This document shows positions 5,335-57,272 of a DNA stretch of 64,000 nucleotides, in pieces. The position numbers and the translations under genes were made by a program. The stretch spans positions 4,117,902-4,181,901 of the forward strand of contig NC_087076.1 in assembly GCF_026151205.1 (NCBI RefSeq), given 5' to 3'. Source of the stretch: Bolinopsis microptera (taxonomy: Eukaryota; Ctenophora; Tentaculata; Lobata; Bolinopsidae). The notes under the pieces are model-generated. The model was not told where the DNA came from. It did not search any database and was given only the letters and a program-made list of their open reading frames with translations. Numbering within the stretch: position 1 is the first letter of the stretch; each line of letters opens with the position of its first letter.

Positions 5335-5489
5335 TCGCGAAGCAATATAATAAATTGATCTTTCTTTAGCCTTAGACCTTTCTTTGTACGCTCTGTATAT
5401 TAAATCAAAGTTCCAAACAAGGGATAGTTTTAAAAAACAACGCCCAAGTCTAATCTTTCCCTAAAACAAAAAACTAAATAACAAAAACT

Positions 5490-6716
5490 TCATTGTAAAT
5501 TCTGCCAATATCTCTTGTCATAAGCTAAATTTCGGAGATAATGTAAATCGAAAATATTATTCGTAAAGATTTTTTTACATAAATCATGCACAATCAGCGA
5601 GAATAGATTGCTTTGGGGTCTTCCTCTTCTCCCTGGTAAGTCCAGTGTATTGATGGCAAAAATGAGGGAAGAAAACGCTGGTCCGTCAACAGGACCCCGC
5701 AAAACATGTCCTAACATTCTCCACCGACTACGGGCCACTTTTTCTGACAATGGTTCAGCATTGCAGCGTTTATACAAGTTTTTGTTGGAGATGACTCCTG
5801 GGTACTTTATATTCAAAATAGTGCGAAGATGTCTGCGGTGAACAACATCTAGTTTTTCAAGGAATATTTTGGGGACGGCCCAACAGGATGAGTTGTACAT
5901 AAGATTATAAGAACTGATACGACTAAAGCATTGTACAGTATTAAACGTTTGTTTAGAGGCAGTTTATCACTCCAGGCCTTCTTGTAATTGTTGAAAGCAG
6001 CATATCCCAGGTTTATGCGACGCTGAATATCAGCTTTGCTACACAAGACGGACCCTAGACTCTAGAGTGATACTTTTCCTCCATGCTTCATTCCCCGACA
6101 ATAATTTTCCATCACTATCGACTTCACCCGTACTAGCTAAATAAACATGAATGAAGTCCGTTTTGTCTTCATTGACAAAGAGGTTCCATTTCTCGAGTAT
6201 AGCTGTTGCCTGGGGCAAAATAGCTCTCAAGTTGTCTTCCTCTTCATCATTGAAGTGACATCATCAGCATATTCAGTGTCAAGTGGAAGGCCAGCAATAG
6301 TGATCGGGGGAATCGGCCTATCTAAACCGATTGTTATAGTCCATCTAAGTTCATTCAAAGCACCAGCTAAGACAAGGGTGAACAGACAGCCGGATAAACA
6401 GTCACCTTGGAAAGCTCCAAGGAGACTTAAAAACTCAGCTGAAAGAACTCCATTTACTTTCACCCGTAGCTTTAGACAACAACAACCGGACAATCCTCAG
6501 CTCATCCTCAGTACAGCCACACAGTTTCAGTCCGAGTTCAAGAATCGTAGTGGGTTTGATCGTGTCAAACGCAATAGACATATCAATGCCCATGCGATGA
6601 TACTCCCATTTCTTCCTTTGGACAACCGACAGTAGAACTCGCTGACACCAAACAATATCAGCACAAGAACGAGCGCGTTTATATGCACACTGCCATGGAC
6701 CAGTGAAGGCGTTCAC
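5490..6716 (-). pseudogene. Decayed LINE reverse transcriptase, copy A
   Basis: The minus strand carries a reverse transcriptase broken into at least four frames (6716-6435, 6493-6227, 6230-6039, 6046-5490). Conserved pieces are readable in order: a DMSIAFDTI active-site strand, LGAFQGDCLSG, a YADD box near 6270, FVNEDKT, and a C-terminal HRRHLRTILNIK and RWRMLGHVLR region typical of non-LTR elements. It is clearly related to the copy at 7.1-8.8 kb but is a different subfamily (YADD rather than YSDD). No endonuclease domain is present, so the copy is truncated at its 5' end as well as frameshifted. It cannot encode a working enzyme. Confidence 0.85.
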
Positions 6717-6759
6717 TTTTTCTTCTATCCTTGTACGCTCTGTAATACAAATTAAAATG

Positions 6760-7100
6760 TGTTCTAGAACGAATGAAACATCCGTGTAACATGGTTATTT
6801 ATCGAGGGAGCACCACTAAACCACCTAATCTGTGTAACATTACTATTGACTAATCTGTAGCTTACCATTAAACAATTATGTATTTAAATTTTAAAATATA
6901 CGTATCAACAGGAAATTTAAGCTTTACACACATTTTAAGGATTGGTATACACTATACAGTATACATGTAGTTTAATGGAAACTTACTGTAAACAGTTATC
7001 TTGAGGTGTGTTGTGTGTAACCACATCAGTATTGTACAAGCAAGCGCTACTTAGGTGCTTAGTGAATAGAAGAGTGTGACAATAAGTATTAACAATAACT
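6760..7100. other. AT-rich spacer between two LINE fragments
   Basis: AT-rich sequence with no convincing coding frame or RNA gene. It separates the broken reverse transcriptase copy A from the 3' end of copy B, which begins near 7100 with a TA-rich tail on the plus strand. Confidence 0.5.
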
Positions 7101-8811
7101 ACTATTATATTATTATAAAACAGGATCTTACCGACAAAAATGATTCTTAAAAATACCTTAATGCGGTAAACTGTACCCTTGAAAAAGATTTTCCCAACAT
7201 CTGTTGCATGCAGCTATATCTCTAATTTCATTCAATTCATGAGAGTTGTCCATTTGCAAATTTCTACTACTTAAATCACTTCTTAAAACCGATAACAAGT
7301 TCATTCTAGGTCTCCCCAATCTTCCAATAAATAAATTATCTGATTCAATAGCAAAAGAGAGAGCCGTTTGGGCTGGGGTGTTCTCCATACTCCTGAGAAT
7401 GTGTCCAAACATCTTCCACCGCTGGTGTTCGATACGCTTTGATAACTTTTCAACTTTGCACCTTTCATACAATGCTTTGTTGCTTATCATACCTTTAGGC
7501 CATTTGATGTTTAAAATGGACCTGAGGTGTCTACGATGAAGTGTGTCCATTTTCTCCATGGTTGCTTTTTTAGGACTCCAACTATTTGAGTTGTAAATTA
7601 ATACAGATACAACTTGAGCGTCATATAACCTCAGCTTTCTTTCAAGGGAAATTTTCTTACCGGACAACCAAACTTTTTCGAAGTTCTTAAAAGCAATTTC
7701 AGCTAGGATTCTCCTTCTTTGAATGTCCTTCTCAGTACACAGTAAGGTACCTAGTGACTTATTACTTCGCCATGGTTCATTATTAGCTAATGGCTGACCG
7801 TTAGTGTCTTTATCAGATTTTTTCGCCAGGTAGAAGGTACTGAATTCAGTTTTACTTTCATTTACTTGGAGGTTCCAGTCTTTGAGAATCTCTTTCACTG
7901 CAGGAAGGAAAATTCTCAGTTTCTCGATGTCCTCGTCAGCAAAGTCACAATCGTCTGAATATTCCCACTCAGTTGGAAAACCTAGTTCTGATACTGGTGG
8001 GTTTGGTCTCCCAGATACAGCTCTGAGGTGGTGTAAGGCTGCTGCAAGAATAAGTGTGAATAGCTTTCCAGATAAACTGTCACCTTGAAAGGCTCCGAGT
8101 AAACTTTCAAACTCTTCCGACAGTGAGGAGTTAACACGAACTCTAAGGAGAGTATTCGATAGAAGGTATTGAACTAAGCGAAATGTCGTCCTCCGAACAA
8201 CCAGCATCTTTCAAAACATTTATGATAGTATCCCTTTTCACGGTATCAAAAGCTCTACTCATATCAATACCCATTTTGCTAAATGTCCATTTCTTCCTCA
8301 TCACAACAGATATGAGCATTCTCTGAGCCCACACAATGTCAGAGCAGCTCCTACCTCTCTTGTAAGCACTCTGCCATGGCATGGTGTAGTTGTCAATTCT
8401 ACTCTCAACCCGTTTTAAGGCAATTTGAGTGAGCATCTTCCTCGATCCGTTTAACAGTGTAAGTGGTCTAAGGCTTGTGAGGGGACCTTTAGGTTTACCG
8501 GGCTTCTGCAGAGGAGTCACAATACCTTGTCCTATCGAACTAATGTATTTGTTCCCACTAAATGACTCGTTAATTGCCTCAGCATACTTCTCAAAAGTGA
8601 TTGGATGGGCGTACTTTATCAACTCATTCTGGAGATTATCTGGACCACTGGCACGGTTTGATTTGAGTTTACTTGCAGCAAGTTTAACTTCAACTGGTGT
8701 AATGGGGTTATCAAGTGGTTTTGGATCGCAGGTAAAAGGTTGCAGGCCAGCTTCAACTCCTTCTGTTAGTTGTTTTTCGAAGAAAGATTTCGCTGTGTTT
8801 GCTTTCCCTAA
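7100..8811 (-). pseudogene. LINE reverse transcriptase fragment, copy B
   Basis: The frame 8207-7158 (minus) encodes 349 residues from the reverse transcriptase palm to the C-terminus: FESLLGAFQGDSLSG, a YSDD box in place of the usual YADD, VNESKTEF, HRRHLRSILNIK and RWKMFGHILR. The preceding frame 8622-8143 adds ISSIGQGIVTPLQKPGK, LRPLTLL and DMSRAFDTV, so one frameshift lies near 8150-8200. The sequence goes on with recognisable residues to about 8811, where an inverted repeat marks the break; endonuclease and ORF1 are missing. The 3' end near 7100 shows a TAA-rich tail on the minus strand. A short copy of the same 3' end lies at 33174-33430. The LINE clade was not assigned. Confidence 0.85.
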
Positions 8812-8844
8812 TTTTTTTTTGTTTTTTTTTTAGGGAAAGCAAAC
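8797..8844. repeat. Inverted repeat at the LINE copy B breakpoint
   Basis: The sequence gtttgctttccctaa is followed by about 19 mostly T bases and then by its complement ttagggaaagcaaac. It sits exactly where recognisable LINE sequence stops, so it looks like a snap-back or inversion junction left by the insertion. Confidence 0.75.
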
Positions 8845-9740
8845 AAAAAAAAATAACTACTGATATAAATTAACTGCAGTAACATGGTGCAACTATAAAA
8901 CTTACCCCCCCCCCCCCCCCCCCCCCCCCCCATTTCATTTCATGACCACTACAATGTTAGAACAGTGTCCACACAATGTAAGAACAGTGTGTACACACAT
9001 TGTTAGAACTCACAATGAGATACACACCCTAAAATGACATACCAGACCCCATTGTGTGAATAGAAACACAACAGTCAACACGTGTGAAACAAAGCAACAT
9101 ACCATGGGTATTGGGTAGTGTGTAGTGTGTGGTGGGAGGTTAAATGTAGAGATGTTTACAAAACCCCCACCTCATGAGGATTATTACATTTACGATCTGT
9201 TAAAACATATTTAACATTACAATTACATAATATAACCTACATAAATCCTGTTCTGGGTAAGTTTTATATTAATAATAAACCATTGTTAATGGTTTATATT
9301 TACAGCTGTGGACTGCAAATGAGAACATGGTAGTAATTAGAAGTTTATTTTGGTAATTCAATAAGTCGGCAATATCAACTAAAATAAGCAGTCCAAGACA
9401 TTTATTTTCGGGAGAGTGATACTGAATGTTCAAGATTGCTTGACACCTTCAATTGAATTTTGAAAGTTTGAGATCAATAAACTGAATCTAAGAATTCCTT
9501 AAACGGTAAAATTAATTTCAAGGGAATTTATTCCGCAATGTTAAAACTTCTTATAATGGCGTAATTTATTAATTTGATATAAAAATTCATCGCAGGATTG
9601 CTCTATAATTGGGAAAATAAGGAGACTGATTAATAAGTAGGAGTATTGAGTTACTGTCGGGAAGGCAGTGTTTTTGGGACAATGATATCATGGCCGGATC
9701 GCTCGTGATGCAGATTACCCATCTACAAATAGCATTATCA
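8845..9740. other. Intergenic region with a 27-base poly(C) tract
   Basis: A run of 27 C lies at 8905-8931. Between 8945 and 9020, short degenerate repeats of the type caca-atgttagaacagtgt occur. The rest is AT-rich with no gene that I can support. Confidence 0.6.
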
Positions 9741-9752
9741 TCTCCTCTTTCT

Positions 9753-9759
9753 TATAAAA
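9753..9759 (+). promoter_or_regulatory. TATA box of the cysteine protease gene
   Basis: A TATAAAA motif lies 37 bases upstream of the protease ATG at 9790. At normal TATA spacing, transcription would start only a few bases before the ATG. Either the 5' UTR is very short or the true promoter lies further upstream. Confidence 0.45.
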
Positions 9760-9789
9760 TCCTAAAGTCACACACTTTGTTTTGTCGTT

Positions 9790-11508
9790 ATGTTCACCTT
9801 GCCTCTTTTTCTGTTAGTATGTTGCAGTAGAGTTGTGACTTTTCAGAACACCCGCATCCCGCCAGAAACTAAAGATCAGATCCTCGCAACAGCAGATGTG
9901 AACACAGCTTTTGAGTTATATCAGCAGAGTTATACGCCGAGTTATAATACGCCATCAGTACTCTTCTTGACTGGGTCGACTCGTAGAAGAAACAGAGCTC
10001 AGAAAAGACAAGATAGGAGGAAGAAAGCTAACTTTGTGATATCTTTGGGGGAGATAAGAGAACATAATGTGAAGTATGAGAGAGGAGAGTCCTGGTATCG
10101 TATGTCAGTTAACCAGTTCTCTGTGATAAGCTCCACCGAGAGGAGGAGATATCTCGGGTATCTGGGGGATGTGGACCAGAACAGGACCAACTCAACCAAC
10201 ATAACGCTATTAGGAGGAGGTAAGGAGAGCTACCCTGATACACTGAGCTGGAGAAAGAGAGGCTACGTAACAAATTCAGTAGACCAGGGTGAATTCTGTC
10301 TCTCATGTTGGACATTCCCAGCTGTAGCCCTGCTAGAGTTCGCTCTGAGAGAAGTATCAGGATCTTTACTCCCTCTATCTGCGCAACAACTGCTAGATTG
10401 TACCTACGAGGAGGTGGTGGACGTAGTGGGACCTCGCCATGATGGGTGTAAGGGAGGGAGGTACCAGGATGCCTGGAGGTACCTTATCTCCAGACAACAC
10501 CTCACTTCACACACAGAGTACCTCTACAGAGCCGCAGATAGGAAGTGCAGGTACCACAGGTACTCTAATAAACTTGAGAACTATGTTAAGTTAACCGGGT
10601 ACAAGGCTGTACCCTCTGATGCTGACGGTGTTATGGAGGCGGTGCAGGTGATGCCACTTGCTACAGCGATAGCGGCTGAAGATGAATTGTGGCTGTATGA
10701 TAAAGGGATATATGATGGCTGTACACAGAGACACAGGGTTCCAGATCACGCAGTGCTTATCACGGGATACGGGATTAAGTACTGGGAGATAAGGAATAGT
10801 TGGGGACCAGATTGGGGGATGGATGGGTTCCTCAAATTCTTCAGGGGACAGGGTGCCAGAATGTGTTTCCTCCTGGACTATGCGTTTTATATCACTTATC
10901 AGAACATGAAATCACCAGAAAACACTGTTTCTCCAACTGTTCCTTCCACAACAACGTCCGCCAATTACAAAGCTTCAAACTGTACGGAAGGAGGAATGTA
11001 CGAGACAAAAACTGACGACGAAGAGAAGGGAAAGAAAGGAGAGAAGAAAGAAGAGGAGGAGGAGGAAGAGGAAGAAAAGGAGGTAGAAGAGGAAAAAGAA
11101 GAACAAGAGGAAATAGAAAAAGAGGAGGACGAAAACGGAATGTCAGACGAAACTAGGATTGAAGAAGAGGAAATGTCAGGAGAAGATGAACCACCAGGGT
11201 CAACAGTGGACTATAAAACTTTAGACCCCGAGTTAACCGCGGCTGACAATGAGGACTGTAATGATGATCCAGAATATAAGTTTCTGTGCCAGCAGTGGTC
11301 CAAGTTGCCTGGTGATCCCTGTAATGCTGGATCCTGGCTTATCTTCACCCAGTATCATTGTATGAAGTCATGTGCCAAATGTAGTGAATGTCAGGATAAA
11401 CACCCGAGCTCTTGTAAATCGTGGGCAGATGAGGGTTACTGCCATGATTCAAGTGAACATCAGGTGTGGATGAAAAGCAACTGTGTAGAATCTTGTGGTT
11501 ACTGTTAG
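9790..11508 (+). CDS. Secreted papain-family (C1A) cysteine protease with acidic linker and two ShKT domains
   Basis: A single uninterrupted frame of 572 residues. Residues 1 to about 17 form a signal peptide. A prosegment follows, with an I29-like EHNVKYERG...YRMSVNQFS stretch at 92-112. The peptidase domain starts near 148. The papain catalytic set is present: oxyanion Gln166 (DQGEF), nucleophile Cys173 (CLSCWTF), His320 (DHAVLITGYG) and Asn336 (NSWGPDWG). The usual CGSCW is CLSCW here. Residues 409-469 are almost all Glu, Lys and Asp. Two six-cysteine ShKT-like modules close the protein (about 490-531 and 534-572), ending in CGYC. The role is probably extracellular or lysosomal proteolysis, with the ShKT modules as binding or anchoring domains; such fusions are common in cnidarians and nematodes. 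The gene has no intron, unlike its neighbours. Confidence 0.92.
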   Translation: MFTLPLFLLVCCSRVVTFQNTRIPPETKDQILATADVNTAFELYQQSYTPSYNTPSVLFLTGSTRRRNRAQKRQDRRKKANFVISLGEIREHNVKYERGESWYRMSVNQFSVISSTERRRYLGYLGDVDQNRTNSTNITLLGGGKESYPDTLSWRKRGYVTNSVDQGEFCLSCWTFPAVALLEFALREVSGSLLPLSAQQLLDCTYEEVVDVVGPRHDGCKGGRYQDAWRYLISRQHLTSHTEYLYRAADRKCRYHRYSNKLENYVKLTGYKAVPSDADGVMEAVQVMPLATAIAAEDELWLYDKGIYDGCTQRHRVPDHAVLITGYGIKYWEIRNSWGPDWGMDGFLKFFRGQGARMCFLLDYAFYITYQNMKSPENTVSPTVPSTTTSANYKASNCTEGGMYETKTDDEEKGKKGEKKEEEEEEEEEKEVEEEKEEQEEIEKEEDENGMSDETRIEEEEMSGEDEPPGSTVDYKTLDPELTAADNEDCNDDPEYKFLCQQWSKLPGDPCNAGSWLIFTQYHCMKSCAKCSECQDKHPSSCKSWADEGYCHDSSEHQVWMKSNCVESCGYC

Positions 11509-12245
11509 CTCAGACTGTCGGACATTTCCATGGATTTGGATGATAACAGTAACGATCAAGTTATTACTTTGGGTGTGCCCCTAGTCACTAGTCAGATATG
11601 AGTTTGTTAATAAGACAGTGCGTCATACTAATTAATTAATAATTATCAGAGATTTAAATGCTAATATGACAGTTAAAAATCACTGTTTTTAGGACACCTT
11701 TCACAATTTGATTACGAGCGGTAACATTTAGTGCAAAAAGGGAACGTTAATTATAATCATGGGCGTAATTTACCGAGACAATAGATTTAATTACTTAATT
11801 GCTAGACAATTCTCACAATTACATAATTGGTCAGGAATCGTTATATTCCAGTCATTACGAATTAGATTTATTCATTGTTTCACTTTCTCTAGAAACATTT
11901 CAATCGCCCTAAAAAGCAACGTACTTGGTTATAAATGTAATTCTTAAACAATTAACTATTATTAAGAACTGATATAATATTAGTGTAATCGTTCTATGTG
12001 ATAGGACAATAATTAAGGGCGTCGCGTAAATTAACAAACCTTACACGAAGGAGTTCAAGTACAGATCTAAAATGTTTGTGTCTAGTTTCCAAGAAATAAA
12101 GGCTAATTTGCCATCTCATTGTAACCCTCCTGAGTACATTGGAATGTACACACAGGACTCACTGTACTGTACACAGCTGTCCACCATTGCGAGTGTGTTA
12201 AAGGTTTATTTCACACTGATGTACTGTAGTACAGACGAGAAGTCT
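11509..12245. other. Intergenic region; possible last exon of the minus-strand TRIM gene
   Basis: Mostly AT-rich sequence. On the minus strand, downstream of TRIM exon 5, an acceptor near 12172 (ggacag) could open a short terminal exon in the required phase that ends at a TGA about 60 bases further on. The polypyrimidine tract is poor, so this exon is only a candidate. AATAAA signals on the minus strand occur near 11870. Confidence 0.25.
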
Positions 12246-12496
12246 ACCCCGAGTCTAACTCCTCCACTTCATATTTACCCCGAGTCTAACTCCTCCACTT
12301 AATATTTACCCCGAGTCTAACTCCTCCACTTAATATTTACCCCGAGTCTAACTCCTCCACTTAATATTTACCCCGAGTCTAACTCCTCCACTTAATATTT
12401 ACCCCGAGTCTAACTCCTCCACTTAATATTTACTCCGAGTCTAACTCCTCCACTTAATATTTACTCCGAGTCTAACTCCTCCACTTAATATTTACC
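12246..12496. repeat. 31-bp minisatellite at a splice donor, 8 copies
   Basis: Eight tandem copies of a 31-base unit containing gagtctaactcctccac. The array begins immediately next to the 5' splice site of TRIM exon 5 on the minus strand. Read on that strand, each unit ends in gggtaaatatt, which repeats the real donor gataggtaaatatt. The last two units differ by one base (actccgag instead of accccgag). Confidence 0.95.
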
Positions 12497-12698: not shown

Positions 12699-12846
12699 CT
12701 GGAGTGAGTTATAATTAGAACAGCTGAGTGAGATACAGTACATTTCTTTTCTCATCATTTTACTTTACATTACGCATCAACATTTTTGCTCTCTAATCTT
12801 TTCACAAGTGCACTGACTTGCTGATAAGAAACTGCTTGATTTTATC

Positions 12847-14640
12847 ATGTCCGGCCATCTTAACAAGTCGATCTCTGCTGCTAACAAGACTCCTGCTGCT
12901 AAGAAGACTCCTGCTAGGAAGAACAGTATCACTAAACCCGCTGCCTCCGGGTCACCCTCAGACACGGAGGCACCCTCCCTCGGTATGTTGGGCTTTGGTG
13001 TGCCATCAATTTACACGTTTTGCGCTAAGACATGTTTAAATGTTTTACCTACCCTCTCCAAAGAAGATATTGATTTTGAATACAACAGGCTCCGTCTTAT
13101 TGACTCCACATTTAATGGCAAAGCCACTAAGCCTGACACCAAACAAGCCGCCATTAAACAATATCTAACACGTCAAATAGTCGTTGATTTAGATCAATCC
13201 ATGAATAGTCTAACTGCGGCTGCCAACTTACTTTCATGTACTGTTAATGGGGAGTGCGAGAAGGCGGTGAAACATCTAGCAGAACGTGCTCTGACGGCGA
13301 TCGAAGAAGTCTCTGATGAAACGAAGAAACAGACCACCCTCATCACACAACAGACTGCAACTCTCATCTCTGAAGCCCCCTCGCAGAACCTCGACATCTC
13401 CAGAGAAGTTACAAGTATGCCTCATTCGCCGGTAAGACTTTTAGAGTGCGATCTTTCAGAGTTAACTTTTGGTGAAGTTTCAAGTGAGCTAAACTTTGAC
13501 ATGCACCACCCTGGAGGCCGTATTACAACTTATTATGGCTCCGTCCCCTACACGTACGGCAGAACCTCACATCCTGTCTCTGTTGGGCCACTTCCACCCA
13601 CTCTGAAACGTGTGTACGAGCAACTGCAAAAACTGGACGCTGACATAACCCCAGAGAACTACACTTGCCTTTGCACGTTATACAAGGACGGATCGGTCGG
13701 CATACCGATGCATAATGACAGCGAACCTAGCATAATGGAGGATAGTCAAATTTATACAGTGTCGTTTGGAGCAACTAGAAACCTTAGGATATCAAGTACA
13801 GTAGGCCCCTTTGTCGAGCATAACATTCCACTTGAGCACGGTTCACTTTACGTCATGTCACGAGAAGATCAGGACAACTGGCGCCACGGCATTGACCGCG
13901 ATATCTCGTTAAGGTTTCCACGCATTTCACTGACTTTCCGCAAACTGAAACAACAAGAGTCATGCACTGTGCCTGCACCTCCAGCTTTCCACCGGATACC
14001 ACCTGTTGCCCCTCCAGCTCAGAACTCCTCCTCTCAGTCTCGTCACTCCAGGGTCCTATTCATACATGACTCTATTCATCGTGAAACACCTGAATGGTTA
14101 TTCGATCAGATACCCGGCCACCGCTGTCAGAAGCGTTTGAACTACCAGCTCATAGACTCTTTGGATCATGACCTCAAACATGCCAAAACTGTGATCATCT
14201 CATGTGGCATAAACGATCTTTCACGGTATGGAAAATCTGCCAAGAGTCTGGCTGATAACTTTTGTCCCCGCCTTGTCGAAAGCTGTAAGAGCAACAAAAG
14301 CACACAGTTTGTTTTTTGTGCTTTGTCTTTAACTAGAATTGGTTGGTTGAACAGAGAAATTGATGATTTTAATCTATGTATGGTGAATCTCGCCAGGGTG
14401 ATTCCCAATCTGACATTTTACGATGCCCATGCCGTTATCAAGCGGGTTCATTCATACTACGTATGGGACCGCAATGATAAGCATGGCATCCATTTACATC
14501 ACGATGTCAGAAGGGCTGTTGCAAATGAACTTGTCAACTGCGTTGGCAAGTTATGTGGATCAGAACTGCCACGCCACAGGAACTGTGCGTGGCTCTACCA
14601 CCATGAGCCTAACAGTCCTTTCAGATATCACCGAAGTTGA
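12847..14640 (+). CDS. LINE-1 ORF1: AlkB-like 2OG-Fe(II) dioxygenase fused to SGNH hydrolase
   Basis: 597 residues from an ATG. Residues 1-40 are Lys, Ala, Ser and Pro rich. Residues 50-190 form a helical region of unknown function. Residues 220-366 read as an AlkB domain: a nucleotide-lid-like YYGSVPYTYGRTSHP, then HND with metal ligands His289 and Asp291, HGSLYVM, third ligand His347, and the C-terminal RISLTFR with the 2-oxoglutarate arginines Arg359 and Arg365. Residues 400-575 are an SGNH hydrolase of the kind found in CR1 ORF1: Ser409 (IHDSI), Asn456 (GIND) and His549 (HGIHL). The Asp that should lie three residues before the catalytic His is His546. AlkB enzymes remove alkyl groups from nucleic acid, so action on the element's RNA or cDNA is a reasonable inference, not shown. 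Confidence 0.88.
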   Translation: MSGHLNKSISAANKTPAAKKTPARKNSITKPAASGSPSDTEAPSLGMLGFGVPSIYTFCAKTCLNVLPTLSKEDIDFEYNRLRLIDSTFNGKATKPDTKQAAIKQYLTRQIVVDLDQSMNSLTAAANLLSCTVNGECEKAVKHLAERALTAIEEVSDETKKQTTLITQQTATLISEAPSQNLDISREVTSMPHSPVRLLECDLSELTFGEVSSELNFDMHHPGGRITTYYGSVPYTYGRTSHPVSVGPLPPTLKRVYEQLQKLDADITPENYTCLCTLYKDGSVGIPMHNDSEPSIMEDSQIYTVSFGATRNLRISSTVGPFVEHNIPLEHGSLYVMSREDQDNWRHGIDRDISLRFPRISLTFRKLKQQESCTVPAPPAFHRIPPVAPPAQNSSSQSRHSRVLFIHDSIHRETPEWLFDQIPGHRCQKRLNYQLIDSLDHDLKHAKTVIISCGINDLSRYGKSAKSLADNFCPRLVESCKSNKSTQFVFCALSLTRIGWLNREIDDFNLCMVNLARVIPNLTFYDAHAVIKRVHSYYVWDRNDKHGIHLHHDVRRAVANELVNCVGKLCGSELPRHRNCAWLYHHEPNSPFRYHRS

Positions 14641-15387
14641 GCACTAATCCATGAATGAATTAATTATATAAAATCAACCTATTCTGAAAAAGCCCTTAAA
14701 TTAAGCATATCATCAAGTTATTTTCATATCTTTTTCAGTACATCCTCACTCCTCAACCAAATTCATCATTTGTTTGCTACCACGATCGATTTTTGAAGAA
14801 ATGATCTGATTGGTCGAAAATGCTTATCTTCTTAAGCTTATCAGATGAACTGATGAACATTCTTAACTATCAAGCATTTTTTGTCTCTTATCATCCCACC
14901 ATACATTTCCTAAAACATTTTCACATTACCAAACAAAATTGTGCACTTTTTATTTAATAATTATAGAAGCTTCTCTGGTAAATCAGCATCAAGCACGTTT
15001 CCTCAGTCAAAGTTCAGTGCAACAGTATTTTCGAAAACTTCACAAACAACTAAATAGCAAAAATCACCACACAAAACTACACAACGACACAATTTCACAC
15101 AACAACATTCAAATCACAACGATTTAATATACACTCTAGGTAAAGTCATATTATCATACTGATAAGCCCGAAAATCGAGATAAGGGCACTATATTGTAAC
15201 ATCTAATTTAGCGAATATTTTTAACAAATAAGTAGATAAGACTCAGATCACGATTTTGTAGCATACAGGACCTCCGGTTCTCGTGAAAGAATCTGATTTG
15301 CACTAGTATAGATATATTTTACGTTATTTATAAATTTATACATTTTTTATTCTCTAATTCGTCCACAAGCATAAGAGTTAACTTAAA
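14641..15387. other. Inter-ORF spacer of LINE-1
   Basis: 747 bases of AT-rich sequence between ORF1 and ORF2, with no long frame. LINE-2 has only 97 bases at the same place. How ORF2 is translated is not evident from the sequence. Confidence 0.6.
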
Positions 15388-18300
15388 ATGGCAAATGTTA
15401 CTGATACTTCTGGTCATAAAATCAAAATAAAATGTGGTAGCTGTAGCGGCTGGTGTTATTCTTCCAAAAACATCCGCAGCTGCTCATGGTGCCATAACAA
15501 CGTCCACGTCAAATGTTTTAAGGAAAATTTAGGTTGTACAAGCTGTTGTGAGAGTCTTATTCCTGGATTTTACGCGACTTACTATGAAATTTACGATGAC
15601 TACAATAAGCTTAATGGCGCTATTTATAATCCATACGCTCAAAATAGTCGATGTAATCTTATTGGAGACGCCATGACCAACGAAGAGCACCAGGATTCAA
15701 CATGGAGTGACATTTCGGCTTTCCTAACTCACTGTCAGTATAAACAGCAACGTAACGTGAAAAGGTCGACATCCTCTCAACTTAAAACATTTTCCATGAA
15801 CATCAGATCCCTTTTCAAAAATATTGATCAACTACGAGAAGATATAGAAATATATGATAAGTATGATGTATTGTGTTTTAACGAAACTAACTGCACTCTA
15901 GGAAAATTGCCCAACGGAATAAACGACATCACATTAAATGGATTCCATGAACCGCATATCCAAGATCCCATCCGCACAACGGGTAAAGGTGGGGGGCTTG
16001 CCATATACATACACAAACGTGTAGTTGACTCTGATAAAATTGATGTCTTCAATCCTAACCCTGAACCCTCAAATACTAGCGGCGAATTTCAATTTATCAA
16101 GATCCACCAGTGTAAAGGATATAATAGAACAAAGATAATTGGAAATGTTTATCGCTCTCCCGCTAGAAAACCTGAAGCATTTCTTGAGATTTTTAAAAGT
16201 ACACTTCACAACCTGGGAAGACACTCTCGCAAACATATGACGTTACATGGAGATTTTAACCTAAATTTACTGAAGCACAGTAGCAACCAGGCATGTCAAA
16301 GCATTATAGATATTGCATCCTCTTACGGTTTCATCCAAATTGTATCACGTCCAACTCGCATAACAGACCACAGTGCCACGCTTATTGATCATATCTACAC
16401 GAACAATCTTGAAGATACAATAAGCTGCAACGTATTGACGACAGATCTGTCGGATCACTTAGCGATAGTTACAACAATTAATCTTGATAATACATCCACC
16501 AGCAGTTACCGCTCCGCATCTTATAATCAAAATCCAACTCAAACCAACGTACGTAGTTTTAATGAGGCCAACAACCATAAATTTAGAGATTTAATAATGG
16601 AAGAAAATTGGTCTGTAATACTAACAAATACCCATGATGCTAACCAGCAGTTTGATTGTTTAAATTCGGCTTACAACAGGATTTATAACGCTGCCTACCC
16701 GACTAAGAGACAGTCCGAGCGCAGACAAAATGAACGTGTTAATCCCAAACCATGGATACTGCCCTGGCTTGAAGAAGCTATAGAACGTAAAAATCAGGCA
16801 TATCATGATTTTGTTAAGGAACCAGTTGATAGGAACCAGCTAAAATACGACCGTTTGAAAAAGTTTTGCACTAAACACGTTGACAAAGCCAAAAACATAC
16901 ACTACAAAAAATTCTTCGAACAACACAAAGATAATTCTAAGAAGCAGTGGCAGATGATTAACGGTCTTCTAAATAGGAAACCAGCTAAACCTACATCGAT
17001 AAAACTGTCGGACGAAAACGGACAAGTCAGCACACCGGCAGCAGTAGCAGAAAAATTTAATGATCACTTCTCAAACATCGCTCCAAAAATTAAATCTGAA
17101 ATTAGTAGTAGGACCACGTTCGATCCTGGTGGGGCCCAGGGGACACTTCGCAACCCTTCTCCAAATAGTATCTACATAAAACCAGTCACAACTACCGAAG
17201 TTCAAGACGTTATTAACCTATTTAAGAATAAAGCTACTCTTGACACCAAAATCCAACCACTCAAAATTGCCAACAGCTGTCATAATTTTACCACTGTATT
17301 GGCCCACGTTGTTAACAGCTCGTTCGAACAAGGGGTCTTTCCCCAAGCCTTGAAAACGGCAAAAGTAGTTCCTGTACATAAAGGTGGATCTAAAACTGAC
17401 ATCAAAAATTACAGACCGATATCTCTACTTGCCACTTTCTCAAAAGTCTACGAAAAGCTTATGCACAATCGAGTCATAAATTTCTTGGATACCTACAATA
17501 TACTTTGTGAAAATCAATACGGCTTCCGCCCAGGTAGGTCTTGTGAACATGCCCTTCTTAATGCTAAAGACAGAATCCTCAATTCAATGTCCAAAAAGCA
17601 AGTTACTTTGCTCCTTTTGATTGACTTTAGCAAAGCCTTTGACCTTGTGGATCACTCCATACTCCTGAATAAGCTCGAGCACTATGGCATAAGAGGTCTA
17701 GCTTTAAACTGGTTTAAATCATATCTTATGAACAGAAACCAGTATGTATCAATTGGATCCTCTGAATCCTCAGCAAACCCCATTATTTACGGTGTACCCC
17801 AAGGTTCAATTTTGGGACCTCTCCTTTTTATAATCTACATAAACGATCTTCCTCAAATATCCGAAATAGCTAATTTCATCATGTACGCAGATGATGCAAA
17901 CATTTTCCTAACAGGAGAAAATATAAACGAGGTTTATGATAAGCTCAAAATTCTTAGCGATGTCTTAGTTAAATGGGTAGATAACAACGGATTAGCTCTA
18001 AATCTTAAAAAAACGAATTATATGATCTTTTCTCGGCAAAGAAACCTCATTTATCGCGATGTAGTAATTTCTAGTGTCACAATCGAAAGAAAAACAGAAG
18101 CCCGTTTCTTAGGAGTTATAATAGATAACAAACTGAACTGGTCGCAACATATTTCTGCCATGAAAATGAAAATGGCCAGATACATTGGAGTCATGTACAA
18201 ACTTAAAAAATATTTGCCTCTGGAAGCACGTTTACAAATATATCACAGCTTTGTGCAGTCTCACCTTAATTACTGCTCCCTCGTCTGGGGTTTTGCTGCC

Positions 18301-18864
18301 AAATCCCATATAGAAACACTATTTGTAAAACAAAAAATGGGTCTTAGAGCAATACTACCAGGTTTTGTTAATTACTGGTACAAAGACGGTACACCACCAG
18401 CAAGTACCAAGTCTGGTTTCTATGTACACAAAATATTGACAGTTCATAGTATCATCGTAAAGAACGCATTAGTTTTTATACATAAGCTGAAAAACTTCCC
18501 AAGTTTAGTGCCTCCCTCTATAAAGAAAACAATACCTAACAGTGCACCAATATTTAACGTCGCCGATCCGGATTCGAGTCTTACAACTACATGGTCAGAT
18601 GAATACGGTAAATACCCTTACAATAATTCAGTATTCTACAAAGGTCCACTACTAGCAATAAACAGATATAGTGTCGCAGCAACTTCCTTGCCAAGTCTAT
18701 TCAACCTTAACATCTACAAAAGGTGCATAAAAAACATGCTCATTGATCAACAAAACGAGGGCATTGCAGACGAATGGCCCAACTTTATGTTATACAATAT
18801 AACGGGACTAAGGAAATCAGAGCGCAACATCAACCGCAATGCTAATAATAACTCTGTCTCTTAA
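15388..18864 (+). CDS. LINE-1 ORF2: PHD-like finger, APE endonuclease, reverse transcriptase
   Basis: 1158 residues, intact. The N-terminus carries a Cys/His cluster of PHD type (Cys16, 19, 23?, 32, 35, His40, Cys43, 50, 53). The endonuclease follows with Asn138 (SMNIRSL), Glu166 (FNETN), HGDFNLNLL at 287-295 and SDHLAIV at about 355-361. The reverse transcriptase has YRPISLL, GFRPGRSCEHA, LLIDFSKAFDLVDH, GVPQGSILGPLLF and the catalytic YADD at 833-836. The C-terminal third has the usual FLGVIID, WSQHI and HLNYCSLVWG segments. There is no RNase H. A PHD-like finger at the start of ORF2, paired with an esterase ORF1, is known from CR1-like elements. All catalytic residues that I can check are present. 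Confidence 0.93.
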   Translation: MANVTDTSGHKIKIKCGSCSGWCYSSKNIRSCSWCHNNVHVKCFKENLGCTSCCESLIPGFYATYYEIYDDYNKLNGAIYNPYAQNSRCNLIGDAMTNEEHQDSTWSDISAFLTHCQYKQQRNVKRSTSSQLKTFSMNIRSLFKNIDQLREDIEIYDKYDVLCFNETNCTLGKLPNGINDITLNGFHEPHIQDPIRTTGKGGGLAIYIHKRVVDSDKIDVFNPNPEPSNTSGEFQFIKIHQCKGYNRTKIIGNVYRSPARKPEAFLEIFKSTLHNLGRHSRKHMTLHGDFNLNLLKHSSNQACQSIIDIASSYGFIQIVSRPTRITDHSATLIDHIYTNNLEDTISCNVLTTDLSDHLAIVTTINLDNTSTSSYRSASYNQNPTQTNVRSFNEANNHKFRDLIMEENWSVILTNTHDANQQFDCLNSAYNRIYNAAYPTKRQSERRQNERVNPKPWILPWLEEAIERKNQAYHDFVKEPVDRNQLKYDRLKKFCTKHVDKAKNIHYKKFFEQHKDNSKKQWQMINGLLNRKPAKPTSIKLSDENGQVSTPAAVAEKFNDHFSNIAPKIKSEISSRTTFDPGGAQGTLRNPSPNSIYIKPVTTTEVQDVINLFKNKATLDTKIQPLKIANSCHNFTTVLAHVVNSSFEQGVFPQALKTAKVVPVHKGGSKTDIKNYRPISLLATFSKVYEKLMHNRVINFLDTYNILCENQYGFRPGRSCEHALLNAKDRILNSMSKKQVTLLLLIDFSKAFDLVDHSILLNKLEHYGIRGLALNWFKSYLMNRNQYVSIGSSESSANPIIYGVPQGSILGPLLFIIYINDLPQISEIANFIMYADDANIFLTGENINEVYDKLKILSDVLVKWVDNNGLALNLKKTNYMIFSRQRNLIYRDVVISSVTIERKTEARFLGVIIDNKLNWSQHISAMKMKMARYIGVMYKLKKYLPLEARLQIYHSFVQSHLNYCSLVWGFAAKSHIETLFVKQKMGLRAILPGFVNYWYKDGTPPASTKSGFYVHKILTVHSIIVKNALVFIHKLKNFPSLVPPSIKKTIPNSAPIFNVADPDSSLTTTWSDEYGKYPYNNSVFYKGPLLAINRYSVAATSLPSLFNLNIYKRCIKNMLIDQQNEGIADEWPNFMLYNITGLRKSERNINRNANNNSVS

Positions 18865-19562
18865 GCACGCCATCACAGAATCAATTTCACTGCATACCAT
18901 CTCAGTTACACTGCCATCAATTCGCCAGCAAAAACGGCATGACGCTATGCGACTGATAAGAGTCGTTAAATTTTTTAAATTTTGGAATAGCTAGCTAGCC
19001 GTAGCTATGCGCCTGTTTCCACTCTACAACTCTAAAAGCGCATTAATATGATAATTTTAACTAAAGGCAACTTTATATGTGCTCAGCTATGTTTTTTTCG
19101 ACAAGCTCCATGTAATGATACATATTAATCGTTTTAATGAGATCTAATCTTGTGCGAGTTTTGAGTTTGAATTGATAACACTTATTATATATATTATTTT
19201 TTGATTAAACATTGGCTGGTACTTCGGGCCGGTCCCCAACAAACATTAAATTGATCTGAAGAAATAAAATTAAATACAGTAGCCATAGGGTAGTTTTGAA
19301 GTTACATAACACGTACTTGACGCACTACATTTGTGTGTATCATTATCTTAACAACATTCCCTGTAGATAATTACAACGGCTCAAATTCAACATGAGATTT
19401 GTGCCAATATAATCACCCCATATTCGTACTTCAATTTCTTTTTCAATCTTAGTGATGTAATCAAACTGTGATCAAATATCGGCAACATGTCACACGTGAA
19501 GAAAGCCAGCCAAAAATTCGACATTCAATCCACTAATGAACAAAACAAAAAACTCTGCTTAC

Positions 19563-52276: not shown

Positions 52277-53659
52277 ATGGATCTGAATTCTGTTACCAAT
52301 GTTTTAAACTCGTTTTCATTAAATGAGCTGAAAGCTCTCAAGGCCAGTGTTGAGAATGTCATGAAACTTAAGAGAAATTCTGTTAAATGCGAGGACTTCT
52401 TGGAGTTGCATTCAGATTTTGTTCAGAACAAGAGTGTTCAACATGGCACGTTGATGTCTGAACTTGAAACACTTATGGCCAAGCAAACTGCTGTGAAAAC
52501 TGCCACAAAGTGGCTCACTTCGACTGGAGAAGAATATGTATGGTCTTCCTCAAATGGACACACCACGACTAAGGAGCCAATCGATATTTTAAATTATCCT
52601 GGGATATCAGAGCTTATGCATGATATCAACTCCAAGTTTGGCTGCAAGCTAAACTCATGCCTAGCAAGCATGTACAAGTCTGGTTCTTGTGCAACTAGGT
52701 ACCACAACGACGACGAGGTGTCTCTTGACCAGTCGCAAGGTATTTATGTAGTTTCATTTGGAGCTGAGAGGACCATCGACATAATTCCAGAAAATGGGGA
52801 TAAGCGATGTAACAGTAAATGCTATATCACCCCAAAGGACTGTAGTTTGTATATTATGAAACCGGGGTGTCAGGAATATTGTCTTCACAAGGTTCGTGCA
52901 GAGAGCTCAGTTAAGGGGACTCGGTATAGCTTATCTTTTCGCTGCCAGATACCGAAGACAGATACAAATGTAGTCAAGGAGCAGATTGCCCGCACTACAA
53001 TTCCTATGCCGCCCACCACCACCTCAACACCAACCCTTTACTACCGAAATACTCCAAGAAAACCGAAGAGCAGGAAAACCACTGTCCTGTTTGGTACGTC
53101 AATGACAAAATTCGTACGGACAAATAAGTTGGGATTCCGGGGAAGGAAAGTAATCAATGTGTCTCAAAGTGGTGCAAAAATTAGAGACATCACTGAAAAC
53201 ATTCATAATTTTCATAAAACTCATGCAGCTGCAGAAGCTGACGATATTGAAAAAATTATATTGAGTGTTGGTACAAATGACATTAAACATTCTAAGTATG
53301 GGGTTCAGTTCCTTAGGAAGTATCTCACTGAATTAATTGACACCACTAAGCAGTTATTTCCCGCTGCAATTATAATTATCCAATGTTGTCTTCCTATTAA
53401 ATGTTTATATTCCTACATAGCAAAGAATGTTCTAGATTTTAATAATCTACTTAAAGACTTATGCCTAAATAATAATTGCGTGTTCTTAGACTGTTTCTCA
53501 GTCTTTTTAACTCGAGACTTTAGATCATGTAATGAACTTCTATACCATGATTGGCTTCATCTCAATATGAGAGGAGTAGGTTTACTGTCCACTTGGCTTA
53601 AGTTTGTTGTAAACGAACACAGTTTTGACAGGGTTGTAAATAATCTTCTGGGAATTTAA
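52277..53659 (+). CDS. LINE-2 ORF1: AlkB-like 2OG-Fe(II) dioxygenase fused to SGNH hydrolase
   Basis: 460 residues, shorter at the N-terminus than its LINE-1 counterpart. Residues 10-75 look helical. The AlkB domain spans about 85-225: HND with His143 and Asp145, SFGAERTIDI, SLYIM, third metal ligand His204, and RYSLSFR with Arg216 and Arg222. The SGNH hydrolase spans about 265-445: Ser275 (FGTSM), Gly299 (SQSGAKI), Asn334 (VGTND), and Asp425/His428 (HDWLHLN), so the whole catalytic set is present. Between the domains, residues 238-262 are rich in Pro and Thr. ORF2 follows after 97 bases. Apart from motif positions the protein shares little obvious identity with LINE-1 ORF1. The function is inferred as processing or repair of the element's nucleic acid plus an esterase activity of unknown target. 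Confidence 0.88.
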   Translation: MDLNSVTNVLNSFSLNELKALKASVENVMKLKRNSVKCEDFLELHSDFVQNKSVQHGTLMSELETLMAKQTAVKTATKWLTSTGEEYVWSSSNGHTTTKEPIDILNYPGISELMHDINSKFGCKLNSCLASMYKSGSCATRYHNDDEVSLDQSQGIYVVSFGAERTIDIIPENGDKRCNSKCYITPKDCSLYIMKPGCQEYCLHKVRAESSVKGTRYSLSFRCQIPKTDTNVVKEQIARTTIPMPPTTTSTPTLYYRNTPRKPKSRKTTVLFGTSMTKFVRTNKLGFRGRKVINVSQSGAKIRDITENIHNFHKTHAAAEADDIEKIILSVGTNDIKHSKYGVQFLRKYLTELIDTTKQLFPAAIIIIQCCLPIKCLYSYIAKNVLDFNNLLKDLCLNNNCVFLDCFSVFLTRDFRSCNELLYHDWLHLNMRGVGLLSTWLKFVVNEHSFDRVVNNLLGI

Positions 53660-53756
53660 ATCTTTGATCTTTTCTTCCATTTAATATTTTGATTAAGACG
53701 TTGCGCCTAAAATTAAAACTCAAACAAATCTCTGATTTAATCTTTTTCTCAATTTT

Positions 53757-56700
53757 ATGCCTCCCATTTCAGGTACATTCGGTCACTGTCCATTTTCCAA
53801 TATGTTAGACAATGAATCGTTTAGACTTAGAATAGGTCTTTTTGCATGCAAAAGGCCTCGTACACAGTCAAGAAATGCACTTATACATATCAACACGTTT
53901 ATACCTAACAAAATTTACACATTTAAGTCTCCATACACCCCACACATCAACTACAATTATCATAATCATATGTTTCTCTTCTATTCTCTCATCATGACTT
54001 ACTTTCTCCCAATTCTTCTCTCCACGGTTAGGTCCATGAACACCGTATTCCCCCTAGATTCTAATATTCATTCCTCTCTACTCCTTGACAGCCCACGTTA
54101 TCTTATACCATTTCTTGCTTGCTCCCACATCAAACTTTTCTTTGTAATTATCTCCTCATGGTTTATAAGAAATGTTCTTCTCCCTGGTAAGATGAATAGA
54201 GTCAAGTATTCCAGCCGCCTCAGGCGTCTAGTCTCTTTATTCATTCTTTGGGTTTTCTCTCTTAACTTTCTTTTGATAACTCTTGTTAATCCTTCTATGC
54301 TTAATCCAGGTCCCAACTCCCTATGTGTACTCTACCAAAATGTCCAAGGTCTCATTCCTTTCAGTAACCTAAGCTCCTCCCATCCCCTTCTTGATGGTAA
54401 TAAGATTTCCGAACTTCAATCCTTTGCTAACATAGAGCAGCCTGACATAATTGCCCTAAATGAGACTTGGCTCAAAAAATCTATTTCTAGCAACGAAATC
54501 TTTCCTTCTTCTCAATATGAAATCTTCCGCAATGACCGCACGAGAAAGACTCATCCTCAAGATCCTAATAACCCTAAAAAGTTTAGGGAAAATGGAGGTG
54601 GTGTTCTTTTGGCTGTTCGGTCTGATCTCGACGCCACTACAACCCGACTACCAGTTAGCCTAGGTGCAGAAATGCTTGCCGTTAAAATTTCTTTTCCTAA
54701 CAAAGAGAGTATTGTAATCTGTACTTGTTATAGAGTAGGAACTCTTGGGTTACCTAATCATGATGTCATAGTTAGTTATATTCGCAAGCTAGTTTCCAAA
54801 AAGAATCCCCCTAAAATCTATGTTATTGGTGATTTTAATCTCCCCCATACAGACTGGCTATCTTCATCCAGTACCGTACCTATTGAGCAATCCTTCATAG
54901 ATTCTTTCAGTGATCTTTCTCTCTCCCAGTTGATCACATCACCCACCCATAAAAGTGGTAATACATTAGACATTCTTCTCAGTAATTATGATAACACAAT
55001 CGATAACTTGAATGTCTGTGATACTCATTCCGTGTGCAAATCTGATCATTTTCCTGTCACTTTTTCAATTAAAAGCTCCTTTTCCCGTAAGAAAACTCCT
55101 AAACGTAAAATCTATAATTTTAAGAAAGCAAACTGGGACATGATTAATCGTGAATTATGCTCGATTAATTGGCAAGTCCTAGAATGCCTAGATCCTGATT
55201 CGTCTTGGAAGTTAGTTAAAGACTGCATTATGAATTTAGTTGATATACATATTCCTAAAGTAATTATTAAATCAGAGTTCCAACCCCCGTGGTTCGATAG
55301 TGAACTTTTTTCTTCATGCCGTAAAAAAGATAGACTCAGAGCTAAATTTAAAATTTCTGGTTCTATTTCTGATGAGTTAAAGTTTGTTACTAGCCGTAAA
55401 GATTTTAAGAGGCTCTCATCAGCCAAAATAAGAGATAATCTTTTTAATAGTGATGATCCAGCGCTTATAACTAAGAAGTTTTGGTCACATGTTAAGTATA
55501 AATCTAACTCCTGCCGTATTCCTAATTGTGTTAGTTATTCTGGACAGCTTCGGTTCAATCCCAAAGATCAAGCTGAACTTTTCAATTCTTTCTTTTATAA
55601 CCAGTTTTCGGATCCTTCACTTTATGACACTGACATCTCCTATGTCAATGATGTTGATTTTGATATTGACTTCGATCATCGGGATGTTCGTAAGCTTCTT
55701 TCAAATATTAATTCAAATAAAGCCCAGGGACCAGATGGCATACACGGTAAAATTCTAAAAAATTGTTCCGTAGGTTTAGCTTACCCTCTAACATGCATTT
55801 TTCGTGGATCCTACAACAGCGGCTACATTCCACAAGAATGGAAACTTGCAAATGTTGTCCCAATATTTAAGAAAGGTAAGAAAAGTGAGGTTGAAAACTA
55901 TAGACCAATATCCCTTACTTGTTTAGTCATGAAAGTTTTTGAGCGCATTGTTAAACGTAAACTGCTTTCTTTGACAAGTACCCTTCTTGATCCCAGGCAG
56001 CATGGTTTTCTAGAGCACAAGTCATGCACAACCAATATGGTTGATTTTTGTGATAGCCTGGCATTGTCTCTTAACGAAAACATTATCAATCATGTTGTGT
56101 ATTTTGATTTTGCTAAGGCATTTGATTCTGTAAATCATGATATCCTTCTTCATAAGCTAAAGACCTTATATAACATTGATGGTACACTTCTCAAATTTCT
56201 TACCAATTACCTTCAAGGCCGTTACCAAAGAGTGGTTATTGGTAATGAGATGTCATCTACCCTCTCAGTTAATTCTGGTGTCCCCCAGGGCTCTATCCTT
56301 GGTCCCTTACTTTTTGTATTGTTTATCAATGATATTCCTCTTGGCCTTTCGGATAATACTGATATTGTTTTGTATGCCGATGATACAAAAATCTGGCGTA
56401 AAATACATTCATCTTCTGATAATACCAATTTACAAATGGATATAGACTATCTCTCTGACTGGGCACTTAGAAACAAAATGCGATTCCATCCAGCAAAATG
56501 TAAAGTGCTTATTGTTTCAGGAAAACCATCTTTATCTCCTCCATTCGCATATAATCTTGATGGCTCTCCTCTTGTGTATGTAGAGTTAGAAAAAGATCTT
56601 GGTGTCGATGTTACTCCTAAGCTCAGTTGGAATAGTCAGTGCGACAGAATTTATACTAAGGCCTGCCAACAACTTGGTATGGTCAGAAGAGATGGCCATA

Positions 56701-57272
56701 TTGTCATTGATCAGAAACGTCGCCGGGCGCTTTACCTCTCCCTGGTTCGTAGCCAATTCGAAAATTGTTCCATAATCTGGCGCCCTTGTAATAAATCACT
56801 TAGTGATAAATTAGAAAGTCTCCAAAAGAGAGCTATTAAATGGATTCTGTCTGAAGAGGGCCGCAGTTATCCACCTGAGCAATATGTCAAAAAGTGCAAG
56901 CTTGTCGACATTCTCCCTTTGTCTCAAAAGTTTGACTTGAATGATCTTATTTTTTTCCACAAAGTTCTGAACAATTTAATTCCTGTATGGCTGCCTCACT
57001 ATCTCACTTTATATCAGGGCACTTCTCGACTAAGACGTTGCCACCTCGACAGTCTGTCTATTGTGTCATCAATTTTACCTAAGTTAAGTCAGAATTCACA
57101 CACCTTATGTACCTCAAATAGCCCACTGGCAAAATCATTTTTCTACAGAACTCATATACTGTGGAATGGACTCCCTTTACAGGTAAGACAGATTGTGTCT
57201 ACAAGTGTTTTCAAAGCTGAGGTCACTAAGCATCTATGGAAATGTTTATTGGATAGTGAAACAACAGCCTAG
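53757..57272 (+). CDS. LINE-2 ORF2: hydrophobic N-terminus with NPGP, APE endonuclease, reverse transcriptase
   Basis: 1171 residues, intact. Residues 72-92, 115-143 and 157-178 are hydrophobic and could span membranes. The third runs straight into NPGP at 183-186. The endonuclease follows: Asn195 (YQNVQGL), Glu236 (LNETWL), an IGDFNLPHTDW block and KSDHFPVTF. The reverse transcriptase has ENYRPISLTCL, QHGFLEHKSC, VYFDFAKAFDSVNH, GVPQGSILGPLLF and YADD at 873-876. The C-terminus is standard (EKDLGVDV, SQFENCSIIWRP). There is no PHD finger and no RNase H. In several LINE clades a 2A-like peptide ending NPGP precedes the endonuclease; here the DxE part of that motif is not conserved. Confidence 0.92.
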   Translation: MPPISGTFGHCPFSNMLDNESFRLRIGLFACKRPRTQSRNALIHINTFIPNKIYTFKSPYTPHINYNYHNHMFLFYSLIMTYFLPILLSTVRSMNTVFPLDSNIHSSLLLDSPRYLIPFLACSHIKLFFVIISSWFIRNVLLPGKMNRVKYSSRLRRLVSLFILWVFSLNFLLITLVNPSMLNPGPNSLCVLYQNVQGLIPFSNLSSSHPLLDGNKISELQSFANIEQPDIIALNETWLKKSISSNEIFPSSQYEIFRNDRTRKTHPQDPNNPKKFRENGGGVLLAVRSDLDATTTRLPVSLGAEMLAVKISFPNKESIVICTCYRVGTLGLPNHDVIVSYIRKLVSKKNPPKIYVIGDFNLPHTDWLSSSSTVPIEQSFIDSFSDLSLSQLITSPTHKSGNTLDILLSNYDNTIDNLNVCDTHSVCKSDHFPVTFSIKSSFSRKKTPKRKIYNFKKANWDMINRELCSINWQVLECLDPDSSWKLVKDCIMNLVDIHIPKVIIKSEFQPPWFDSELFSSCRKKDRLRAKFKISGSISDELKFVTSRKDFKRLSSAKIRDNLFNSDDPALITKKFWSHVKYKSNSCRIPNCVSYSGQLRFNPKDQAELFNSFFYNQFSDPSLYDTDISYVNDVDFDIDFDHRDVRKLLSNINSNKAQGPDGIHGKILKNCSVGLAYPLTCIFRGSYNSGYIPQEWKLANVVPIFKKGKKSEVENYRPISLTCLVMKVFERIVKRKLLSLTSTLLDPRQHGFLEHKSCTTNMVDFCDSLALSLNENIINHVVYFDFAKAFDSVNHDILLHKLKTLYNIDGTLLKFLTNYLQGRYQRVVIGNEMSSTLSVNSGVPQGSILGPLLFVLFINDIPLGLSDNTDIVLYADDTKIWRKIHSSSDNTNLQMDIDYLSDWALRNKMRFHPAKCKVLIVSGKPSLSPPFAYNLDGSPLVYVELEKDLGVDVTPKLSWNSQCDRIYTKACQQLGMVRRDGHIVIDQKRRRALYLSLVRSQFENCSIIWRPCNKSLSDKLESLQKRAIKWILSEEGRSYPPEQYVKKCKLVDILPLSQKFDLNDLIFFHKVLNNLIPVWLPHYLTLYQGTSRLRRCHLDSLSIVSSILPKLSQNSHTLCTSNSPLAKSFFYRTHILWNGLPLQVRQIVSTSVFKAEVTKHLWKCLLDSETTA

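Follow-up and report, generated by a model that had tools for sequence, protein, structure and literature searches.

An AlkB-SGNH ORF1 in a young LINE family of the ctenophore Bolinopsis microptera

The stretch analyzed here, referred to as the window, comprises 64,000 nucleotides of the Bolinopsis microptera genome (NC_087076.1, positions 4,117,902 to 4,181,901). It contains a full-length copy of a long interspersed nuclear element (LINE), denoted family A, which is a young, many-copy element whose first open reading frame (ORF1) fuses an AlkB-type demethylase-like domain to an esterase-like domain. A preliminary description of this DNA had proposed an AlkB-SGNH fusion in ORF1 upstream of an intact ORF2 with endonuclease and reverse transcriptase; this arrangement is borne out by Pfam, by fold matches and by the ORF2 motifs. 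The fusion and its predicted fold are accompanied by a complete, conserved set of Fe/2-oxoglutarate (2OG) ligands, by many intact copies and by long-term constraint. We explain these observations best, with a probability of roughly 0.45, by a recently active LINE in which the AlkB domain of the ORF1 protein (ORF1p) would keep the template of reverse transcription readable by removing 1-methyladenine (m1A) and 3-methylcytosine (m3C).

Profile PF13532 matches ORF1 residues 233-365 with an E value of 1.8e-18, in agreement with the AlkB domain expected at about residues 220-366. The predicted fold contains the AlkB-type double-stranded beta-helix and matches ALKBH2/3. His289 and Asp291 of the HxD motif, His347, Arg359 and Arg365, which had been pointed out before in the AlkB order, are invariant in all 33 rows of alignment A1; this alignment combines 32 of the 41 proteins P0001-P0041 with P0042 and includes both ORF1s of the window. 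We take the two arginines to be the 2OG-binding arginine and the AlkB-signature arginine, respectively. The five ligands are also present in at least 75 of the 76 rows of alignment A2, which represents the second lineage by 75 of its 95 matches plus P0042; both alignments leave out partial or more distant rows. Chance likeness of a short HxD motif is ruled out by the profile, family and structure evidence. According to sequence and fold ranking, the closest solved structures are ALKBH2/3 and not ALKBH5/FTO or ALKBH1; this closeness rests on the ranking, the AlkB tree described below covering elements, three presumed host rows and Escherichia coli AlkB. AlkB structures made up most of the matches listed in a fold search with P0001, and the other parts of ORF1 were barely covered.

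The C-terminal part of ORF1 has an SGNH fold with the Ser, Gly, Asn and His block residues in place. A complete SGNH hydrolase triad consists of Ser-Asp-His, with a DxxH motif. In the window ORF1, the position three residues before His549 is occupied by His546; across the 33 rows of A1 it is Asn in 23 and Asp in 2. The Asp is present in the second element of the window (D425) and in 64 of 76 rows. The Pfam GDSL scores are 16.9 bits for the window ORF1 (cutoff 32.9 bits) and 47.8 bits for the second-element ORF1, with E values ≤ 0.01 in 23 of the 33 rows of A1. Thus, of the SGNH esterase proposed earlier, the fold with its four block residues stands, at residues 400-590 instead of the expected 400-575 or so, and is not accompanied by a Pfam match above cutoff; esterase catalysis stays putative. 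Ser, Gly, Asn and His are given as the four invariant SGNH residues in the available text of PMC4021074.

The remainder of the element is that of a LINE with an endonuclease. The 5′ end of the window copy is common to its siblings, and its 3′ end reads ...CCCCAACAAA, followed in several siblings by a short A run that is absent here; dispersed family-A copies have this 3′ end in common. The catalytic motifs of the apurinic/apyrimidinic (AP) endonuclease and of the reverse transcriptase in ORF2 are intact, and Pfam gave no RNase H match in this frame. An exact-match search of the flanks of six copies yielded no convincing target-site duplication. The AlphaFold2 model of the ORF1 N-terminus consists of low-confidence stretches at residues 1-56 and 164-189 and of a long helix at residues 96-167, possibly a coiled coil; neither an RNA recognition motif (RRM) nor a zinc knuckle was found in ORF1 by Pfam. 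The non-coding stretch of about 380 nt directly before ORF2 (15010-15387) lies in a block that is ~80% identical to sister family B, and might be a translation or RNA element. Short tandem repeats (~TTTTTACTTTCATTCAATCA) that resemble the first bases of the element adjoin the 5′ end of three copies (L011, L012 and L014), and a 31-bp minisatellite array is located just upstream of the window copy (12245-12492).

Features of the two AlkB-SGNH LINEs in the window.
Feature	Position	Strand	Basis or remark
Full-length LINE copy, family A	12758..19243	+	blastn of window against 9 family-A siblings, end comparison
ORF1, 597 aa: disordered N-terminus, long helix, AlkB, linker, SGNH	12847..14640	+	
ORF1 residues 1-190	12847..13416	+	AlphaFold2 model
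AlkB domain, residues 191-370	13417..13956	+	PF13532 and ALKBH2/3 fold match
HxD iron ligands His289, Asp291	13711..13719	+	invariant in 33/33 rows
Iron ligand His347	13885..13887	+	invariant in 33/33 rows
RISLTFR with Arg359, Arg365	13921..13941	+	invariant in 33/33 rows
SGNH-fold domain, residues 400-590; Ser409, Gly454, Asn456, His549; no Asp at -3 of His	14044..14616	+	Pfam, AlphaFold2 model, fold search, alignment
Inter-ORF stretch, 747 nt, stops in all three frames	14641..15387	+	
ORF2, 1158 aa: Cys-rich N-terminal stretch, AP-type endonuclease, reverse transcriptase	15388..18864	+	
ORF2 endonuclease, residues 138-357	15799..16458	+	PF03372, E 8.5e-06
ORF2 reverse transcriptase, residues 669-912, YADD at 833	17392..18123	+	PF00078, E 5.7e-38
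Second-element ORF1, 460 aa (P0042)	52277..53659	+	
Second-element AlkB, residues ~37-226	52385-52954	+	
Second-element SGNH, residues ~265-449	53069-53623	+	
Second-element ORF2, 1171 aa: endonuclease and reverse transcriptase	53757..57272	+	PF00078, E 1.2e-28; PF14529, E 6.4e-13

To count copies, the own genome was searched over 264.65 Mb in 232 contigs, the window sitting on contig C5; the match numbers are lower bounds. The first-element ORF1 has at least 75 matches, the window included, 49 of which span the query from residue ≤265 to residue ≥569 without a stop. Both ORFs are intact in 4 of the 9 family-A siblings fetched and in 6 of 10 family-B copies. The ORF1s of the two families are ~61-62% alike and their full-length ORF2s 84.1-84.6%. 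Since synonymous differences are also more frequent in ORF1 (pS 0.69) than in ORF2 (0.56, from fewer copies), the comparison hints at partly separate histories of the two frames. For the ratio of nonsynonymous to synonymous change (dN/dS) we used 8 of 10 family-A ORF1s (L010 and L017 contain a stop codon), 10 family-B ORF1s and, for ORF2, the intact copies only (5 of family A, 6 of family B). Over the long term AlkB is under constraint (dN 0.256, synonymous change being saturated), though to a lesser degree than SGNH (dN 0.134).

A distantly related second AlkB-SGNH LINE, overlooked in the preliminary description, occupies positions 52277-57272 of the window. Its ORF2 has the YADD, SDH and GDFN motifs, and its ORF1 has at least 94 matches in the own genome, including 26 near-complete, stop-free ORF1s at 95-100% identity (own copy counted). 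Decayed relatives of this ORF1 form groups with equal scores and stop counts on contigs C5, C10, C12 and C13 (for example C10:7598938, C12:1364478 and C13:15319248), which suggests shared segments or arrays.

AlkB domains are also found in further mobile elements of this genome, in which PF13532 has at least 151 matches (587 candidates, 150 scored); a few of these loci were inspected. L031 and L034 belong to LINE families other than those above, their ORF1s combining AlkB with a weak SGNH match and their ORF2s having endonuclease and reverse transcriptase (on the basis of Pfam for both ORF1s and for the ORF2 of L031); L033 is close to L031, their ORF2s being 98% alike. In L035, where AlkB was detected by the PF13532 search, a Cys-rich finger, AlkB and an SGNH-like end were recognized by eye in one frame, and a Cys finger and an endonuclease start in the neighboring one. 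The Helitron L030 (G000:C10:16872343-16882342) carries the SGNH and AlkB pair, as judged from its sequence, in the order opposite to that of the LINE ORF1s. A single frame of at least 2653 aa (2040-9998 of this locus, running on towards L036) comprises SGNH at residues 10-177 (below the Pfam cutoff), AlkB at 488-620 (E 5.7e-21), DUF6570, Helitron_like_N (E 4e-22) and a PIF1 helicase. By eye, L039 is its sibling over its length and L040 a partial one. The first 700 residues have five matching proteins elsewhere (coverage 96, 94, 46, 31 and 23%); four of them, P0141-P0144 from other contigs, have SGNH, AlkB, DUF6570, Rep and helicase, and the fifth has AlkB alone. Three single-frame ALKBH-like genes, L032, L037 and L038, are presumably host genes. 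In a 40-row AlkB tree (P0084 and P0122 added; P0082, P0121 and P0138 left out), 36 element rows split from these three and from E. coli AlkB with a support of 94/85, which is not decisive. Grouping the Helitron AlkB with E. coli AlkB and the presumed host genes gave a p-AU of 0.41, and placing the LINE rows alone together one of 0.415; a separate capture of the Helitron AlkB is thus neither shown nor excluded by these sequences.

Beyond this genome, the first ORF1 has relatives in 40 protein clusters from other records, all 40 with PF13532, and the second in 95 clusters, 70 with PF13532; they come from public contigs. Copy counts and these outside relatives together rule out a recent host-gene capture in a single copy. 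Viral contigs searched with P0001 and alignment A1 yielded no confirmed locus, and those searched with A2 a single weak one (L009). Two scans of prokaryote contig collections gave no locus, as expected of prokaryotes. One AlkB-SGNH ORF1 relative, P0008, is filed as a protein of a planctomycete metagenome-assembled genome; its source is probably a mis-binned eukaryotic contig.

We infer 2OG-dependent demethylation as the function of the ORF1 AlkB domain, by which the family-A element may repair its RNA or DNA copies or free them of modifications. ORF1p would package the element RNA, because this is the general role of ORF1 proteins, and its SGNH part would handle membrane or lipid contacts, after the proposal made for ZfL2-1. 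The AlkB domain, placed within the ribonucleoprotein (RNP), would use Fe(II), O2 and 2OG to strip methyl groups from the Watson-Crick face (m1A, m3C) of the packaged RNA and of single-stranded cDNA. Because lesions of this kind block reverse transcription, AlkB would keep the template readable. An RNP-held enzyme of the ALKBH2/3 type, with its presumed catalysis, substrate and placement, would explain both the type of enzyme and its fusion to ORF1.

Several findings weigh against this account. A fold match alone says nothing on substrate. NxY is an AlkB-family motif, and the window ORF1 has T277-L-Y279 instead; across the 33 rows the Asn position is Thr in 25 and Asn in 4, with Tyr in all 33; the Asn is present in the Helitron, in L031, L033 and L035 and in the presumed host rows. 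Inside family A, AlkB appears little constrained (mean dN/dS 0.86 over 28 pairs with few changes), compared with 0.164 in the N-terminus and 0.105 in SGNH. Finally, the second window element, the abundance of genomic AlkB matches and the Helitron AlkB weaken an explanation by LINE RNA only. Helitrons are not known to reverse-transcribe, and protection of a reverse transcription template is therefore not the whole story; the Helitron AlkB speaks for a substrate that both types of element share, for example single-stranded DNA (ssDNA) or mRNA. One could go further and regard an ALKBH2/3-type dealkylase plus SGNH as a standard kit of unrelated mobile elements here, namely of several LINE lineages and a lineage of Helitrons. 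It would be retained for removing a methyl mark or lesion that stops reverse-transcribed and rolling-circle elements alike, and would act as the eraser in a conflict between host and transposons over the methylation of RNA/ssDNA. We advance this wider proposal tentatively and think the odds are against it.

The main rival to template protection is that AlkB erases N6-methyladenine placed by the host on RNA (m6A) or DNA (6mA) to mark transcripts or new copies for silencing. It would cover LINEs and Helitrons alike, and the fast change of AlkB within family A is what an arms race could give. Positive selection on AlkB was dropped as a candidate: the window compared with its siblings, AlkB against the rest of ORF1, gave a Fisher p of 0.08 (rounded mean counts, small numbers), and family B has no such contrast (dN/dS 0.405 in AlkB, 0.333 in SGNH). 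In vitro, the AlkB protein of an orchid Ty3/Gypsy element acts as a demethylase on m6A in single-stranded RNA (PMC9289625), and in mouse embryonic stem cells loss of Alkbh1 leads to more 6mA, with repressive marks, at the 5′ ends of young L1 elements (reviewed in PMC4982230). Human L1, however, is helped by m6A and suppressed by ALKBH5, the wrong sign for an eraser (PMC7873242), and the closest solved structures are not ALKBH5/FTO or ALKBH1. Because they are ALKBH2 and ALKBH3, repair of m1A/m3C appears to suit the domain better, and we regard m6A or 6mA erasure as rather unlikely.

Less probable again is a non-catalytic role, in which the AlkB fold would serve ORF1p as a nucleic-acid-binding module with dispensable enzyme activity. 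Without an RRM or zinc knuckle detectable by Pfam something else must bind RNA, and the TxY variant, the low AlkB constraint inside family A and the window SGNH lacking the Asp before its His all fit such a module; yet retention of the five ligands in all 33 rows of A1, and in no fewer than 75 of the 76 rows of the second lineage, is unexpected of a mere binding fold. ORF1 proteins are expected to work on the RNA of their own element, and the position of AlkB inside ORF1 in several LINE groups makes it slightly more improbable still that the dealkylase acts in trans, repairing host DNA or altering host tRNA/mRNA modification and so limiting transposition damage or raising translation. High copy number could nonetheless add considerably to the supply of ALKBH2/3-like enzyme, next to the three presumed host genes. 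LINEs can mobilize host transcripts, and a host ALKBH cDNA might have been fused to one LINE by accident without selection, or the fusion might be an assembly artefact. We consider this highly improbable in view of the stop-free copies (49 of 75), the outside clusters with PF13532 (40 of 40 and 70 of 95), the conserved ligands and, though not decisive, the separation of the 36 element rows in the tree.

Among the papers listed by searches of an open-access library, we found no description of AlkB in a Helitron or in the ORF1 of a LINE, and the preliminary description likewise knew of no AlkB-SGNH LINE ORF1; subscription papers, preprints and Repbase lay outside the scope, so that an earlier mention is possible. 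The window AlkB belongs to the same enzyme family as ALKBH2 and ALKBH3 by sequence and fold, but it sits, fused to SGNH, within the ORF1 of a transposon and has TxY in place of NxY. In domain layout, ORF1 resembles the type IV (esterase) ORF1s of CR1/L2 LINEs such as ZfL2-1, which likewise have an N-terminal helical region and a C-terminal SGNH domain and precede an endonuclease-reverse transcriptase ORF2; the available text on these in PMC3905857 and PMC4120745 mentions no AlkB or oxygenase. Esterase-type ORF1s are assigned to vertebrate groups only in PMC4120745, and transposon esterases of cnidarians and sponges are also listed in PMC3905857. The Phalaenopsis Ty3/Gypsy element is also a retrotransposon encoding an AlkB-type protein, an m6A demethylase in vitro, but it is a plant long terminal repeat element with a separate extra ORF termed ALKBH5-like, and no SGNH is mentioned in the available text (PMC9289625). 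Plant RNA viruses (Alpha- and Betaflexiviridae, Closteroviridae) are likewise RNA-based with an AlkB of their own, for which RNA repair has been proposed (cited in PMC9289625). Viral AlkB models were among our matches; the viral domain differs in being part of a replicase polyprotein and not of a LINE ORF1. The platyfish texim, an SGNH gene associated with a Helitron (PMC4021074), parallels L030, which has SGNH in the Rep-helicase frame; texim, however, is a separate gene near the Helitron and AlkB is not named in the available text, whereas L030 and P0141-P0144 hold AlkB in the same protein. The one listed paper combining ctenophores, retrotransposons and AlkB (PMC8141815) deals, in the available text, with host ALKBH1 and ALKBH4.

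LINE ORF1 proteins are poorly understood, and a complete dioxygenase ligand set offers a defined, mutable enzyme for retrotransposition studies. Its presence in ORF1 points to methyl lesions or marks on the RNA or ssDNA of the element as a limit on transposition, and its spread over several LINE families and a Helitron in one animal genome takes it beyond a single-copy curiosity.

Elsewhere in the window, ORFs containing reverse transcriptase belong to other element families (7158-8207 on the minus strand, 33614-34957 on the plus strand and 48358-49926 on the minus strand). A 572-aa ORF at 9790-11508 resembles, by eye, a papain-like protease that also has ShK-like Cys motifs and a linker rich in acidic residues.
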